Of a stretch of DNA of 64,000 nucleotides, positions 4,412-31,641 are shown in pieces. The first letter of the stretch is position 1; every line of letters starts with the position of its first letter. A program made the position numbers and the translations under genes. The DNA comes from Bacteroidia bacterium (lineage in GTDB: Bacteria; Bacteroidota; Bacteroidia; J057): positions 62,001 through 126,000 of the forward strand of contig JAUIGE010000004.1 of assembly GCA_030430205.1 (NCBI GenBank), read 5' to 3'. The notes under the pieces were generated by a model. That model was not told the DNA's origin. It ran no database searches and saw nothing but the letters and a program-made list of their open reading frames with translations.

Positions 4412-4618
4412 AAAAGCCGGTAAAATAAATCATCTGTTTAGAATAATCCTCTCCGCCTCCGCACCCCTTCGCAAAGCTTTAGGACAAGTCTCTTTTCAAT
4501 CCAAGAGTTGCCAGGTTGAACGGCAGGGTGGAGTGACGGAGAGCAAAAGAGGCTCTTCTTGATTTATTTTGTTGGCCTTCCTGAGCCCCATTTTACCAAA
4601 AAGTCATAAATTGAGTTT
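4412..4618. other. Intergenic stretch with imperfect inverted repeats
   Basis: No coding sequence is apparent. CTCCGCCTCCGCACC (about 4450-4464) can pair imperfectly with GGTGGAGTGACGGAG (about 4528-4542), and a CTCTTTT run near 4490 can pair with AAAAGAG near 4546. Together they could form one long, branched stem between the kinase stop and the 12-bp repeat tract. It may be a transcript end or a folded RNA; nothing more can be claimed. Confidence 0.35.
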
Positions 4619-4702
4619 CAAAACAATTTTCAAAACAATTTTCAAAACAATTTTCAAAACAATTTTCAAAACAATTTTCAAAACAATTTTCAAAACAATT
4701 TT
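4619..4702 (+). repeat. Seven perfect tandem copies of a 12-bp unit abutting a start codon
   Basis: The unit CAAAACAATTTT is repeated seven times without a mismatch, ending three bases before the ATG of the haloperoxidase gene at 4706. It therefore occupies the whole ribosome-binding and leader region. The unit is a multiple of three and lies outside the coding frame, so copy-number changes would alter leader length rather than reading frame. Confidence 0.97.
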
Positions 4703-4705
4703 CAA

Positions 4706-6043
4706 ATGACTCAAAATGTTAAATGCTACTTGCTGCTTTTGTTAAGTGTCTTTTTTTTGAATGCATGTCAACAAGATGATCCGATTGCTCCAGAGAATCT
4801 TACCTCTGCCTATTCTTCAGAAATCTCAACAGAATGGATGTCGCTGACTCTGGATTTGACAAAAAACGGGACGGGTTTTACGCCTCCTGTTGCGGCCCGT
4901 GCTTTTGGTTATATTGGACTTACCCTTTACCAAAGTGTATTGCCTGGAATGCAGGGCTACAAAAGCATGGAAGGTCAGGTAAACGGGCTTTTAGTCGGCA
5001 GTTTACCCAAAATTGAAGAGGGGAAAATTTATAATTGGGGAATCGTTGCCAATGCGGCTCTTGCAAAAGTGATCAAATCCTGCTACAGCAATGCCAGCAG
5101 TGATCAATTTGCTGCAATCGATCAGTTGGAAGCCAAATGGGAAGCTGCTTTTCCCGATGAAAAGCAAAAGGTGATTGAGCGCTCCATCGCCTTTGGCAAA
5201 AGCATGGGCGATGCGATGATCGCCTACGCCAACTCTGATAATCAGGCAAATTGTTTCAATACCAACTTTCCCTCTGATTTTGTTGCTCCTACAGGTGAAG
5301 GACTTTGGGTACCTACTCCGCCAGCCTTTCAGCCAGCGCTTCAGCCCTACTGGAAAGATGTAAGGCCTTTTTTGACAAAAAATGTTCAGGGAACACTTCC
5401 TATTCCTCCTCCAAGCTATTCAACAGACACAACATCTGTTTTCTGGAAGGAACTGAAGGAAGTTTATGATGCTGTAAAAAATCTGACGAGCGAAGAAAAG
5501 GACATTGCCGATTTCTGGAGCGATGATCCCGGTAAAACTTCTACTCCTCCGGGGCATTCATTTTCTATTCTGATTCAGATACTTGAGGCCGAAGATGCCA
5601 ACCTTGAACTGGCTGCAGAAGCTTTTGCCAAATTGGGAATGGCAGTACATGATGCCTTTGTTTCGTGTTGGAATGCAAAATTTGTTTATAATCTTATCCG
5701 CCCAATTACTGTCATTCACGAAAAGATTGATCCCAACTTCAGTATTCCACTGAGTACGCCTCCATTCCCGGAATATACTTCCGGGCACTCAGTCCAATCA
5801 GGAGCCACAGCTCAGGTGCTGACAGATCTTTTTGGTGACAACTATGCCTTCACCGATAGGACCCATGAAAACAGGACGGATATTGATGGCTCGCCACGGA
5901 ACTTTAGTTCCTTTTTCGAATTTGCAGATGAAGCAGCTATCAGCCGCCTCTACGGTGGGATTCACTATCGCGCAGCGATTGTGGTCGGGGTTTCACAAGG
6001 TAAACTGGTAGGGCAAAACATAGGGGCTCTACAGTTCAAATAA
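4706..6043 (+). CDS. Vanadium-dependent haloperoxidase (PAP2-superfamily) lipoprotein
   Basis: 445 residues. A hydrophobic signal ends in LNAC, a lipoprotein cleavage site, so the enzyme is probably anchored in the outer membrane facing the periplasm or surface. The three conserved blocks of the vanadium haloperoxidase/acid phosphatase superfamily are complete: KFVYNLIRP (K, six residues, then RP; about residue 325), TSGH (about 357-360) and SRLYGGIH (SR, five residues, then H; about 413-420). Such enzymes oxidise halide with hydrogen peroxide, or act as phosphatases if they bind phosphate instead of vanadate; motifs alone do not separate these. It stands alone, with an unusual repeat-filled leader before it and a long stem-loop just after it. 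Confidence 0.9.
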   Translation: MTQNVKCYLLLLLSVFFLNACQQDDPIAPENLTSAYSSEISTEWMSLTLDLTKNGTGFTPPVAARAFGYIGLTLYQSVLPGMQGYKSMEGQVNGLLVGSLPKIEEGKIYNWGIVANAALAKVIKSCYSNASSDQFAAIDQLEAKWEAAFPDEKQKVIERSIAFGKSMGDAMIAYANSDNQANCFNTNFPSDFVAPTGEGLWVPTPPAFQPALQPYWKDVRPFLTKNVQGTLPIPPPSYSTDTTSVFWKELKEVYDAVKNLTSEEKDIADFWSDDPGKTSTPPGHSFSILIQILEAEDANLELAAEAFAKLGMAVHDAFVSCWNAKFVYNLIRPITVIHEKIDPNFSIPLSTPPFPEYTSGHSVQSGATAQVLTDLFGDNYAFTDRTHENRTDIDGSPRNFSSFFEFADEAAISRLYGGIHYRAAIVVGVSQGKLVGQNIGALQFK

Positions 6044-26178: not shown

Positions 26179-26183
26179 CGGAG

Positions 26184-26406
26184 AAGAGAGAAGAGAGAAG
26201 AGAGAAGAGAGAACAGAGAAAAGAGAAAAGAGAAAAGAGAAAAGAGAACAGAGAACAGAGAACAGAGAAAAGAGAGCTCCATCATAAGCCTCTTATCTCT
26301 CTTCTCTACTCTCTCTTCTCTACTCTCTACTCTCTCTTCTCTACTCTCTACTCTCTACTCTCTACTCTCTACTCTCTACTCTCTACTCTCTACTCTCTAC
26401 TCTCTT
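26184..26406. repeat. Purine-rich tract followed by its pyrimidine-rich complement
   Basis: From about 26184 to 26276 the + strand is made of GAGAA/AGAGAGAAC-type units. From about 26290 to 26406 it is made of TCTCTACTC/TCTCTTCTC units. The two halves are largely complementary, so a transcript would fold into a long imperfect hairpin, and the DNA could form triplex-like structures. It occupies the whole gap between two secreted-protein genes. Confidence 0.95.
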
Positions 26407-27311: not shown

Positions 27312-30300
27312 ATGCTACATACAAAGCTCATCACAGCGCTTTTGACAGCCACACTGGCTTTTTTTACCCTCTCTACCTTCGCCCAGACATCAAGTCCGCA
27401 AGACATAGCCCAGGCAGCCAACGGCCTCAGGCTTCGCAGCATAGGCCCGGCGGTGATGGGCGGACGGATCGCAGATATAGCTGTGAACCCGGCAGATCCC
27501 AGCTGCTGGTATGTAGCCGTAGGTTCGGGCAATGTTTGGAAAACCGTCAATAGCGGCATCACATGGACGGCTGTCTTTGAGAATCAAAGTTCCTACTCCA
27601 TCGGCTGTGTGACTCTGGATCCCAACAATCCGGAAATCGTCTGGGTAGGAACAGGCGAAAACGTCAGTGGCCGTCATGTGGGCTGGGGCGATGGCATCTA
27701 CAAGAGCACCAACGGCGGAAAAAGCTGGGAAAACAGCGGCCTCAAACGCTCTGAGCATATCGGCAAAATCCTCGTTGATCCCCGAAACAGCGATGTCGTG
27801 CTGGTTGCGGCAGAGGGGCCACTTTGGGCTTCGGGAGGAGATCGGGGGGTATACAAAACAACAGACGGCGGCAAAAACTGGACATGCGTGCTGGCAATCG
27901 ACGAAAATACCGGCGTCACCGATATCGAGTTTGACCCTTCGAATCCCGATGTGGTCTACGCTGCGGCCTACCAGCGCCGGAGACAAACATGGGCGCTGCT
28001 CGCCGGTGGCCCTAAATCGGGCATCTACAAATCTACCGACAAGGGCAATAGCTGGCGTCAGGTCAAAACAGGGCTTCCTGCCGGAGACATGGGCAAAATC
28101 GGCCTTGCAGTCACGCCTGCGGATCCTTCTCTGGTCTATGCCACCATCGAGGCCGATGATTCAGAAAAAGGCTTTTACCGCTCCACAGACAGAGGCGAAA
28201 GCTGGGAAAAGCGCAGCAGCTATATCTCCGGCGGTACAGGCCCGCATTACTACCAGGAGATAGAAGTATCTCCTGTCAATTCCGACCTCATCTACCAGAT
28301 GGATGTTTTCCTGCATGTCTCCCGCGATGGTGGAAAGACCTTCGACTACCTGACCACAGGCCGCGATAAGCATAGCGATAACCACACCTTTTGGATAGAT
28401 CCGAACAACGGAAAGCACCTGATCGCTGGCACGGATGCAGGCTTGTATGAAAGCTTTGATGAAGGAAAAAGATGGCGTCACTTTCCGAACCTGCCCATCT
28501 CCCAGTTCTACAAACTGGGGCTTGACAATAGCGAGCCATTCTACAACATCATCGGCGGAGCCCAGGACCTGGGCACCCTGATCGGTCCGTCGCGGACGAT
28601 GAATGCCGAAGGCGTGCGCAACCAGGACTGGTTTGTGCCCCTGGGCGCGGATGGCTACGATTCGCACTTTGATCCTACAGATCCCAACATCGCCTATATG
28701 GAATATCAGCAGGGCGAGCTGCATCGCTATGATCGCCGCAGCGAAGAGGTGCTGAACATACAGCCCCAGCCCGCGCCCAACGATCCGCCGGAGCGTTGGA
28801 ACTGGGATAGCCCCATTCTGATCAGTCCGCACGATCACAAGCGGATTTACTTCGGTTCCCAGCGCCTATGGCGCAGCGATGACCAGGGAAACTCCTGGAA
28901 AGCCGTCAGCAAAGACCTGACGACACATACCAACCGATACGAATTGGAAATGATGGGCCGCGTATGGAGCGTCGATGCTCTCTATGACAATGGAGCTATG
29001 TCTCAATACGCCACGCTGACCGCCATTTCGGAATCTCCGCTGGCAGAAGGCCTGCTGTATACAGGTTCCGATGATGGGCTGATCCATATCAGCGAAGATG
29101 GAGGCACCAACTGGCGCAAAAGCGGCGCTTTGGGCAAGCTGCCCGCCCGTTCTTTTATCAATGATGTGGAAGCTTCCCTGCATGATGCAAACACGGTTTT
29201 TGCGGTCGCAGATGCGCATAAGTTTGGCGATTATAGCCCCTATATTTTCATGAGTGCTGACCGTGGCAAATCCTGGAAGTCTATCTCAGGCGATTTGCCT
29301 GCGGGAACCATCGTTTGGGCGATCAAGCAGGACCATCAGGATGCAAATCTCCTGTTTATCGGCACCGAATACGGCCTGTACTTTTCCTACAACAAAGGCA
29401 GCAACTGGCTGCAGTTGAAAGGGGGTGTGCCCACGATTGCCTTCCGCGACATTGAGCTGCACCAGCGGGATGGGGATCTGGTGGGCGCGACTTTTGGGCG
29501 AGGATTTTATGTGCTGGATGATTATGCCTCACTCCGAGGCATCAGCCAGGCCGTAGCCGCCCAAGCGAATACGCTTTTTCCCGTAAGAGATGCCTGGTGG
29601 TATGTGCCCCATGTGCCGATGCAGGCGAAAGGCATGCCTACGCTGGGCTCCGATAGCTATGTGGCGGAGAATCCGCCTTTTGGAGCGCTTTTCACCTACT
29701 ACCTTCAGGAAGTGCCGCAAACGGCAAAGGAGAAGCGCCAGGAGGCAGAAAAAGACCTACGCAAGCAAGATGCAAACATCCCTTTTCCGGGTTGGGAAAA
29801 TCTCCGCAAGGAATCCGATGAAAGCGAAGCGCAGGCCCTGCTGCTGGTGCGGAACGAAAAGGGCGATCCGATCCGCTGGATCGCAGGCAAAAGCCAAAAG
29901 GGCTTGCACCGCGTCAATTGGGACCTCAGGCTGCCCGCGCCCCATCCCATCAAGCTGAGCGTCCCGGCCTTTCAACCGCCATGGGCGGGTGATCCGCAGG
30001 GGCCGCTGGCCGCCCCGGGCGTCTATAGCGTGCAGCTCTTCATAGAGCATGATGGTAGCCTGAGATCGCAGGGCGATCCCCAAAATTTCACCGTCAAGCC
30101 GGTTCCAACGGCACCCACAGGCACAGACTTTCAGGCTGTGGCGGCCTTTCAGCAGCAGACTGCCGAGCTGATGCGGCAGACCTCCGGTGCCGGACAGAAA
30201 CTGTCCGAGGCAGGGGAGCGCCTGCGCTTTATGGCTGCGGCTTTGAAACAAACCCCCAAAGCGAACGAAACACATTTCGCCCAATACCATAGCCTGGAAG

Positions 30301-30584
30301 ATGAGCTGGCGGCTTTGCGCATGCGTCTCTGGGGCGATCCCGCCCGCCAGAAGCTGAATGAATCTTCGATGCCTGGCATCAGTGGACGTGTAGGCAGTGT
30401 CGCCTACGGACATTGGGAAACGCGGCAGATGCCGACGGAGACCTTCAGGCGGAATTTTGAAATCGCGGAGAGCGACTTTGCGGCTTTCCGGACAGATATG
30501 GAAGCCTACTTCCAGAAACTGGAAGCTTTTGAGGCGAGGCTGGAAGCTGCGGGTGCGCCTTATACGAAGGGGCGGCGGTTATAA
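27312..30584 (+). CDS. Secreted sortilin/VPS10-like beta-propeller protein with BNR repeats
   Basis: 1090 residues with a signal peptide (ALLTATLAFFTLSTFAQ). The body is a run of Asp-box/BNR repeats such as GIYKSTNGGKSW, GVYKTTDGGKNW, GIYKSTDKGNSW and GFYRSTDRGESW between about residues 75 and 680, the sortilin-type ten-bladed propeller arrangement. After about 740 the protein changes to a mixed region with a FlgD-like sandwich (VNWDLRLPAPHP, PGVYSVQLF) and a helical C-terminus. Bacterial members of this WD40/YVTN/BNR glycosyl-hydrolase-like family are abundant secreted proteins; substrates are unknown and no catalytic motif is proven. The stop codon lies inside the first unit of the hairpin array that follows. 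Confidence 0.9.
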   Translation: MLHTKLITALLTATLAFFTLSTFAQTSSPQDIAQAANGLRLRSIGPAVMGGRIADIAVNPADPSCWYVAVGSGNVWKTVNSGITWTAVFENQSSYSIGCVTLDPNNPEIVWVGTGENVSGRHVGWGDGIYKSTNGGKSWENSGLKRSEHIGKILVDPRNSDVVLVAAEGPLWASGGDRGVYKTTDGGKNWTCVLAIDENTGVTDIEFDPSNPDVVYAAAYQRRRQTWALLAGGPKSGIYKSTDKGNSWRQVKTGLPAGDMGKIGLAVTPADPSLVYATIEADDSEKGFYRSTDRGESWEKRSSYISGGTGPHYYQEIEVSPVNSDLIYQMDVFLHVSRDGGKTFDYLTTGRDKHSDNHTFWIDPNNGKHLIAGTDAGLYESFDEGKRWRHFPNLPISQFYKLGLDNSEPFYNIIGGAQDLGTLIGPSRTMNAEGVRNQDWFVPLGADGYDSHFDPTDPNIAYMEYQQGELHRYDRRSEEVLNIQPQPAPNDPPERWNWDSPILISPHDHKRIYFGSQRLWRSDDQGNSWKAVSKDLTTHTNRYELEMMGRVWSVDALYDNGAMSQYATLTAISESPLAEGLLYTGSDDGLIHISEDGGTNWRKSGALGKLPARSFINDVEASLHDANTVFAVADAHKFGDYSPYIFMSADRGKSWKSISGDLPAGTIVWAIKQDHQDANLLFIGTEYGLYFSYNKGSNWLQLKGGVPTIAFRDIELHQRDGDLVGATFGRGFYVLDDYASLRGISQAVAAQANTLFPVRDAWWYVPHVPMQAKGMPTLGSDSYVAENPPFGALFTYYLQEVPQTAKEKRQEAEKDLRKQDANIPFPGWENLRKESDESEAQALLLVRNEKGDPIRWIAGKSQKGLHRVNWDLRLPAPHPIKLSVPAFQPPWAGDPQGPLAAPGVYSVQLFIEHDGSLRSQGDPQNFTVKPVPTAPTGTDFQAVAAFQQQTAELMRQTSGAGQKLSEAGERLRFMAAALKQTPKANETHFAQYHSLEDELAALRMRLWGDPARQKLNESSMPGISGRVGSVAYGHWETRQMPTETFRRNFEIAESDFAAFRTDMEAYFQKLEAFEARLEAAGAPYTKGRRL

Positions 30585-31107
30585 TCTTGTCACCCCTTCG
30601 GGGTTTTTGGGGTGTTGATGGGTTCTGGATTTGATCTATAATCTTGTCACCCCTTCGGGGTTTTTGGGGTGTTGATGGTTTCTGGCTATTTATAATCTTG
30701 TCACCCCTTCGGGGTTTTTGGGGTGTTGATGGGTTCTGGATTTGATCTATAATCTTGTCACCCCTTCGGGGTTTTTGGGGTGTTGATGGGTTCTGGCTAT
30801 TTATAATCCTGTCACCCCTTCGGGGTTTTTGGGGTGTTGATGGGTTCTGGATTTGATCTATAATCTTGTCACCCCTTCGGGGTTTTTGGGGTGTTGATGG
30901 GTTCTGGCTATCTATAATCTTGTCACCCCTTCGGGGTTTTTGGGGTGTTGATGGGTTCCGGATTTAAGCTATAATCTTGTCACCCCTTCGGGGTTTTTGG
31001 GGTGTTGATGGGTTCTGGATTTGATCTATAATCTTGTCACCCCTTCGGGGTTTTTGGGGTGTTGATGGGTTCTGGCTATTTATAATCTTGTCACCCCTTC
31101 GGGGTTG
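30581..31107 (+). repeat. Ten tandem 54/57-bp units, each with a UUCG hairpin plus T-run
   Basis: Units start at 30581, 30638, 30692, 30749, 30803, 30860, 30914, 30971, 31028 and 31082. Each contains ATAATCTTGTCACCCC, TTCG and GGGGTTTTTGGGGTG. ACCCC-TTCG-GGGGT is a five-pair stem with a UUCG loop followed by T residues, the form of an intrinsic terminator. Spacers alternate between 57 bp (GGATTTGATCT type) and 54 bp (GGCTATTT type), so the higher-order unit is 111 bp. The units are contiguous, without unique spacers. Confidence 0.97.
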
Positions 31108-31262
31108 AAAGCCTTGAATCCCGGAGGGATGACAGGATTATAGCCTTGAATCCCGAAGGGATGACAGGATTATAGCAAAAACAAATCGAATCTTGCTTGA
31201 ATCCCGAAGGGATGACAGATATAACAAAACGTATCGAATCCAGCTTTAACCCTGAGAGGATG
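31108..31262 (-). repeat. Inverted, diverged copies of the UUCG-hairpin unit
   Basis: GAATCCCGGAGGGATGACAG (from 31116), GAATCCCGAAGGGATGACAG (from 31148 and again from 31199) and a decayed CCCTGAGAGGATGAT (about 31250) are reverse-orientation relatives of the forward array: on the minus strand they read ATAATCCTGTCATCCC-TTCG-GGATTC. The last forward unit and the first inverted copy could pair over more than 20 bases. Confidence 0.85.
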
Positions 31263-31309
31263 ATATCATTAAATGAGGTGATTGTGGAAGTGAAGGGGGA
31301 TTTTTCAAA

Positions 31310-31641
31310 TTAAAAGGCATATCCCACCTTCAAAATCACATTTTGAGGCGTGTCGTAGGAATGCCGCCCGCCAGGCTATTCACCGCATGGTAATGGCCTG
31401 TATTCCCGGATAAGAATGAACCGGAGATGTTCGTGTAAAGGTAGGAGAGTTGCCCTTCTACTGCGACATGCGGCAGGAGCGCATAGGCAGGATTCACGCC
31501 AAGGTGTATGCCCAGGCCATTATCCAGGAGGGGGCTTGTCAAACCCACGGTAGCTGAAGTGGAAAAAGGGCTTTGCTGCGCGTATGTGTATGCAGATATA
31601 GAAAAGAAGAGGAATGCGAATAGCGTTTGCCTCATATTCAT
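31310..31641 (-). pseudogene. Outer-membrane barrel protein, internally deleted and frameshifted
   Basis: The minus-strand frame from 31641 encodes a signal peptide (TLFAFLFFSISAYTYAQ) and typical small-barrel strands (YALLPHVAVEGQLSYLY), but ends early in GIPTTRLKM. Shifting frame near 31375 restores GGRHSYDTPQNVILKVGYAF and a stop at 31310-31312; the final aromatic Phe is typical for outer-membrane proteins. At only about 105 residues, the middle of the barrel is missing. Two bases separate it from the upstream gene. Confidence 0.7.

Follow-up and report, generated by a model that had tools for sequence, protein, structure and literature searches.

Why should a bacterial gene be followed by ten copies of the same hairpin? 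The question is raised by a 64-kb stretch of a Bacteroidia genome, hereafter the window (C43:62001-126000 of a 7.24-Mb assembly in 80 contigs), in which an array of short palindromes sits within a 289-kb contig between two convergent reading frames. The gene before the array (27312-30584, + strand) encodes a 1090-aa Sortilin-Vps10/BNR-repeat protein, and the ORF after it (31336-31641, - strand) encodes 101 aa with no Pfam match. An original prediction, made from the sequence alone, described the units as terminator-like and hinted that plain termination fails to account for ten of them, a hint that our analysis supports. The units belong to a repeat family that is dispersed over nine loci of this genome, is linked to a transposase across several phyla, keeps its structure despite sequence change, and repeatedly forms arrays. 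To judge from their sequences, the units are very probably REP-like palindromes of a Y1 (HUH) transposase with subclass 1.2 motifs, amplified as dimers.

The array itself is real. In a scan of the 64-kb window, ACCCCTTCGGGGT occurs ten times without mismatch on the + strand, from 30592 to 31105. Allowing up to 2 mismatches raises the count to 12, where 100 shuffles average 1.14 and never exceed 4. Unit 1 (30580-30636, 57 bp) consists of TATAAT, a TTGTC tag region, a hairpin at 30592-30604, and a spacer. It is followed on the same strand by unit 2 (30637-30690, 54 bp; hairpin 30649-30661), unit 3 (30691-30747, 57 bp; hairpin 30703-30715), unit 4 (30748-30801, 54 bp; hairpin 30760-30772), unit 5 (30802-30858, 57 bp; hairpin 30814-30826), unit 6 (30859-30912, 54 bp; hairpin 30871-30883), unit 7 (30913-30969, 57 bp; hairpin 30925-30937), unit 8 (30970-31026, 57 bp; hairpin 30982-30994), unit 9 (31027-31080, 54 bp; hairpin 31039-31051), and unit 10 (31081-31106; hairpin 31093-31105), which ends early, after GGGGTT. 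The stop codon of the preceding gene lies within the first unit, as had been noted: TAA at 30582-30584 is inside the first TATAAT, and the first hairpin starts 7 nt past it. Inverted units, of which at least three had been claimed, start where unit 10 breaks off. They lie on the - strand at 31110-31142 (ATCCC-TCC-GGGAT at 31118, with TGTC tag and TATAAT), 31143-31174 (ATCCC-TTC-GGGAT at 31150, with TGTC tag and TATAAT), and 31195-31223 (ATCCC-TTC-GGGAT at 31201, with TGTC tag). A degenerate fourth inverted unit (31246-31272, hairpin at about 31249-31261, by eye) overlaps a Tandem Repeats Finder row.

The steps from hairpin to hairpin are 57, 54, 57, 54, 57, 54, 57, 57, and 54 bp, so that the proposed alternation of 54 and 57 bp holds overall and is broken once, by the 57-57 step at unit 8. 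Tandem Repeats Finder describes the array both as 57 bp x 9.5 and as 111 bp x 4.8, the latter with 95% matches. The array has a dimer period, because units two apart are more alike (mean identity 95.3%, n = 7) than neighbors are (90.8%, n = 8); this supports the suggestion of expansion by 111-bp dimers. Besides their difference in length, the units carry point changes; the stretches between hairpins are near-identical as well.

The earlier reading as a UUCG hairpin was out of register. With 13 nt rather than 14, the core forms ACCCC-TTC-GGGGT, a 5-bp stem with a TTC triloop, and leaves no room for a UUCG tetraloop on a 5-bp ACCCC/GGGGU stem.

A genome-wide count, as the original prediction had proposed, places the unit well beyond the window. 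The 17-mer TGTCAYCCCTTCGGGRT has 40 matches in the genome at up to 2 mismatches, and they are clustered; the reversed control has 3. Thirteen matches fall in the window array, others form clusters at C1, C9, C46, and C61 (two), and singles lie at C78, C56, and C65; two isolated weak matches at C8 and C20 are taken as chance. The family occupies nine loci: C1, with a transposase gene, and eight without, the window among them. The unit is built of TATAAT, a tag T[AGT]TC, a 5-bp hairpin with a 3-nt loop, and about 25-30 nt. In clusters with both orientations, forward units come before inverted ones, the exception being C1, where one inverted unit lies 5' of the transposase gene. Neighboring ORFs were called simply, at a length of at least 90 aa, with C65 resting on small ORFs and C56 lying at a contig end; by these calls, the eight loci with both neighbors visible comprise 6 convergent, 1 co-directional, and 1 divergent, and at the six convergent loci hairpins face each gene. 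At C61, copies are nested and truncated, and every new copy starts at TATAATCC or TATAATAT. At one place there (L055:5110-5400; G000:C61 near 198 kb), each of the new copies begins at TATAAT right after a broken older copy. Three hairpins of this genome (L052 ~5508-5545, L053 ~5415-5455, and L058 ~5301-5343) carry a similar loop insert beginning CAGGCTCAGGGCAGG, perhaps another repeat family nested inside.

The transposase gene (C1:177-638, outside the window) is intact, is present in a single copy, and encodes a 153-aa Y1 (HUH) transposase, with an inverted hairpin on its 5' side and forward hairpins on its 3' side. The protein matches PF01797 and, above cut-off, NF033573; the REP transposase model matches below cut-off, and the sequence match to the IS608 transposase has an E of 1.3e-4. 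A structure model of an 88% identical relative (L092, pLDDT 84.5) matches the ISDra2 and IS608 transposases and also 4er8, a REP transposase-hairpin structure (E 5.6e-5). The motifs of the protein are DHVH, WQ, and Y---Q--HH (YIANQEQHH); across 81 sequences, DH[VI]H is found in 72 and Y---Q--HH in 78. In the portion of Quentin et al. (2018) that defines TnpA-Y1 subclass 1.2, the defining features are the DH[VI]H and Y---Q--HH motifs and a length of about 148 aa, and on this showing the C1 protein carries signature motifs of the subclass. Near the genome's two further Y1 genes there are no hairpin copies, save one weak 2-mismatch match (L091).

Does the pairing of hairpin and transposase extend to other genomes? 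Relatives of the protein come from Bacteroidota, Ignavibacteria, Anaerolineae, Brocadia, Calditrichaeota, and others, and the best 80 of 146 were used. Among these, outward-facing hairpins at up to 2 mismatches lie within 200 bp of the gene at 61/80 loci on the 5' side and 61/78 on the 3' side, against 0-1 of 67-70 in distant flanks. Hairpins of opposite orientation lie within the same distance at 23/80 (5') and 24/78 (3') of these best 80 of 146, and 19/80 (5') and 17/78 (3') have no recognizable hairpin. Thirty further loci in genomes of the class have outward hairpins in 17/30 (5') and 25/30 (3'); because loci are related and not independent, all such counts, of linkage and of structure alike, are more descriptive than tests. 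Across 295 genomes of the class, 144 have the transposase at E<=1e-20 and 45 have the exact pattern TCAYCCCTTCGGGRTT, while the reversed control of the pattern has zero matches in any of the 295. The pattern is present in 19/22 genomes with a transposase at E<=1e-65 and in 26/273 others. Its share declines as the transposase diverges (6/26, 7/45, 5/51), as expected if stems drift. Of the 144 genomes that have the transposase at E<=1e-20, 107 are without the exact pattern, and of the 45 that have the pattern, 8 are without the transposase at that threshold. Two genomes without the transposase at E<=1e-20, G195 and G304 (L218, L220), have nine and twelve exact hairpins; these repeats are either orphans or accompanied by a gene that has diverged.

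Structure is retained where sequence is not. A model with a four-nucleotide loop, following the UUCG wording, yielded 19 hairpins. It gave way to a test that assumed no sequence and let the loop length range from 2 to 8, in which only a loop of 3 was enriched (116/158 flanks versus 14/137 far stretches). When the arms were left free (CA-N4-TNC-N4-TT), 200/244 near sites were fully complementary, compared with at most 105 for shuffled arms and 0/20 far sites. Nine stem types occur among the near sites: the stems change, and the arms stay complementary. Left and right hairpins are identical within one locus in 19/47 cases, where 10.9 are expected. Among 356 hairpins near transposases, the stem is 5 in 351 and the loop 3 in 337, and the tetranucleotide 5' of the foot is TATC in 64, TGTC in 55, and TTTC in 50, not GT[AG]G. 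Long-stem CGTC REPs were not found beside the transposases in this set; one hairpin at L142 has a TGTC tag with a longer stem and an imperfect foot, by eye. A plasmid search returned two good transposase relatives. The Persicobacter one has similar hairpins, alike in build and with another stem. On the Bernardetia plasmid NZ_CP147018.1 (L236:1340-1500), repeated palindromes lie 5' of the transposase relative and the 3' side has none; the palindrome, GTTGC-TCT-GCAAC, has a wholly different stem and the same build, with a 3-nt loop.

Arrays recur as well. The array in G261 comprises 13 units of 49-51 bp. In G266, one array of 8 units shows a dimer period of about 88 bp (identity 0.86 at lag 2 versus 0.54 at lag 1), and a second has 7 units, each 52-53 bp long; the arrays of G102 and G158 are shorter. 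With arrays in these four genomes, the family is habitually given to tandem growth, and the window is not alone in having a dimer period. Tag, TATAAT, and stem recur in the units of the other arrays, which lie at unrelated places. In G001, of the same genus, the 1090-aa gene has an orthologue (76%) with the same end codon and no hairpins after it; an exact empty site for the window locus is not matched there, because downstream gene order differs. In that genome the transposase was not found at E<=1e-20, and the mutS and histidine-kinase loci, taken to 1.5 kb past the genes, have no hairpins besides stray 2-mismatch matches. Two exact pattern matches in G001 were set aside, being without TATAAT and looking coding by eye.

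Several known systems invite comparison. As the REP sections of PMC3116915, PMC6006769, and PMC8266576 describe REP/REPIN/REPtron systems (TnpA-REP, RAYT), a low-copy Y1 gene is flanked by short palindromes, a conserved tetranucleotide lies 5' of the foot, and copies are dispersed between genes, with inverted pairs and tandem clusters among them; PMC3116915 records REPs clustered in tandem next to RAYT genes. Three features of such a system are found here: palindromes flanking the Y1 gene, the conserved tetranucleotide, and copies dispersed away from the gene. The differences from those accounts are a class 1 motif, Y---Q--HH, where REPtrons have the class 2 NP motif; a tag T[AGT]TC, not GT[AG]G, with a 5-bp stem and 3-nt loop; and a copy number of about 40, low for REPs, which number in the hundreds. 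The short-hairpin rules as given in the methods of PMC6006769, a GT[AG]G tag and a fully paired stem of at least 7, do not fit these repeats. The part of PMC8266576 on cleavage reports a CT site for some TnpA-REP enzymes, and the base preceding TATAAT here, C or T in 39/41, may correspond to such a site by resemblance.

With TnpA-Y1 subclass 1.2, as its section in Quentin et al. (2018) presents it, our proteins share DH[VI]H, WQ, Y---Q--HH, a length of about 150 aa, low copy number, and occurrence in Bacteroidetes. The survey's entries on the subclass give no REP and generally no IS200 terminal structures, whereas hairpins flank most members examined here. The relevant table of PMC6006769 lists "no" REP for subclass 1.2; its REP search, as outlined there, demanded GT[AG]G and a stem of at least 7, rules that these repeats fail. 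The pairing of REP-like repeats with a protein bearing subclass 1.2 motifs is new, and searches of open-access papers on the repeat letters and on REP/RAYT with Bacteroidetes found no description of these repeats. With this result, a transposase subclass for which the main survey named no repeats gains cognate ones, and the REP concept extends past GTAG tags and long stems.

The IS200/IS605 elements (IS608, ISDra2) share the Y1 HUH fold and subterminal hairpins. Here, unlike in those elements, the hairpins on the two sides are, in the main pattern, mutually inverted and not in the same orientation, this genome has one copy of the gene in place of several near-identical ones, and many repeats have no gene. 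The passages of Di Nocera et al. (2013) on CGTC-tagged REPs list TGTC as a variant, have the stem begin with A-T, and also report them from Bacteroidetes; their stem of 8-9 bp, loop of 4-5, and tail CCA differ from the stem of 5 and loop of 3 found here. PMC3733652 states that no transposase is known for these CGTC REPs. The TGTC tag in common offers no more than a lead, given the differences in stem and loop. TIRYT/TIRtron systems, in the outline given by PMC6006769, have inverted repeats around a Y1 gene, and the TIRYT motif GGGGWSAS fits GGGGTGAC of the inverted unit; by the same outline, their inverted repeats are long and their proteins mostly subclass 2.1, unlike the short hairpins and class 1 motif here. 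A bolder proposal, which we regard as doubtful, is that subclass 1.2 forms a separate REPtron lineage (Bacteroidota, Ignavibacteria, Anaerolineae, Brocadia) with a REP defined by structure (T[AGT]TC, 5-bp stem, triloop) whose stem drifts with the transposase, and that this lineage or its ancestor is the missing mobilizer of TGTC/CGTC-tagged REPs.

Could the array instead be a selected multi-hairpin terminator, bidirectional between convergent genes, in a family that spreads as terminators? A T5 run follows the stem in 9/10 window units, the first hairpin comes 7 nt after the stop codon, and at 6/8 resolvable loci the flanking ORFs converge, each with hairpins facing it. Family-wide, the T-run is mostly shorter: among transposase-linked TTC-loop copies, the stem is followed by 2-3 T in 116/163 and by at least 5 in just 20/163. 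The RNA hairpin of the window unit is as stable as shuffles (z ~0), and a competing 6-bp stem, CACCCC/GGGGTG, is predicted to beat the triloop in both DNA and RNA, which also tells against easy triloop formation in this unit. The terminator reading accounts neither for the inverted copies 5' of the transposase gene nor for conservation of the tag and TATAAT, and we consider it very unlikely. Terminator form had been taken as what defines the unit; conservation falls instead on TATAAT and the tag before the hairpin, on the triloop stem, and on linkage to the Y1 transposase, and without a family-wide T-run we do not class the repeats as intrinsic terminators. Any terminator or mRNA role of the array at convergent gene ends would be secondary, and such hairpin arrays should be called terminators only with caution. 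A CRISPR array was likewise rejected: the inter-hairpin stretches are near-identical, Rfam CRISPR-DR37 scores 20.3 bits against a cut-off of 40, and Rfam at a permissive cut-off gave sub-threshold matches only.

Other readings concern the copy number of the array. Selection might keep ten copies of mobile-type repeats co-opted for mRNA 3'-end protection or as sites for DNA-binding proteins; PMC6006769, where it reviews REP functions, mentions such roles, and the position at gene ends would suit them. Arrays at unrelated places in other genomes and the same-genus relative without an array after the orthologous gene make this distinctly unlikely. An ordinary hairpin sequence might simply have slipped, the transposase having no bearing on the array; the near-identical units and the dimer period fit slippage or unequal recombination alone. 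This is unlikely as a full account, given that the window unit also occurs at other loci and goes with a single transposase type, and that tag, TATAAT, and stem are common to the units of other arrays, although it may be true of the amplification step. That the copy number is an assembly artefact, a concern with a draft in 80 contigs, is highly improbable: the array lies inside a 289-kb contig, its units vary in length and carry point changes, and other assemblies have similar arrays.

We favor REP-like palindromes mobilized by the Y1 transposase, and a plausible sequence of steps can be outlined. The transposase would bind the hairpin on an exposed single strand, with the tag T[AGT]TC as its presumptive guide, and would cut at C^T beside TATAAT, so moving or joining units. 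The window array may have grown from a two-hairpin doublet of 111 bp by dimer amplification, through slippage, unequal recombination, or transposase strand transfer, and was perhaps tolerated because it lies between convergent genes. The family offers a compact test system for the ways in which single-strand transposases may spread and amplify palindromes.

The surroundings of the array have features of their own. Between 32773 and 38600 lie a short TIR-domain ORF, a DUF1016 ORF, and a protein of 1600 aa that includes helicase parts of the DEAD and UvrD types; PADLOC matches in this stretch are PDC-S66, PDC-S02, DpdF, and GajB, defence-like neighbors adjoining the array. Other tandem repeats occur in the window. 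A perfect 12-bp repeat, TTTCAAAACAAT x7.6, occupies 4616-4706. At 26181-26405, between two + strand genes, adjoining 7-bp arrays (GAGAAAA x13.6 and TCTCTAC x14.7) could differ in length from cell to cell.
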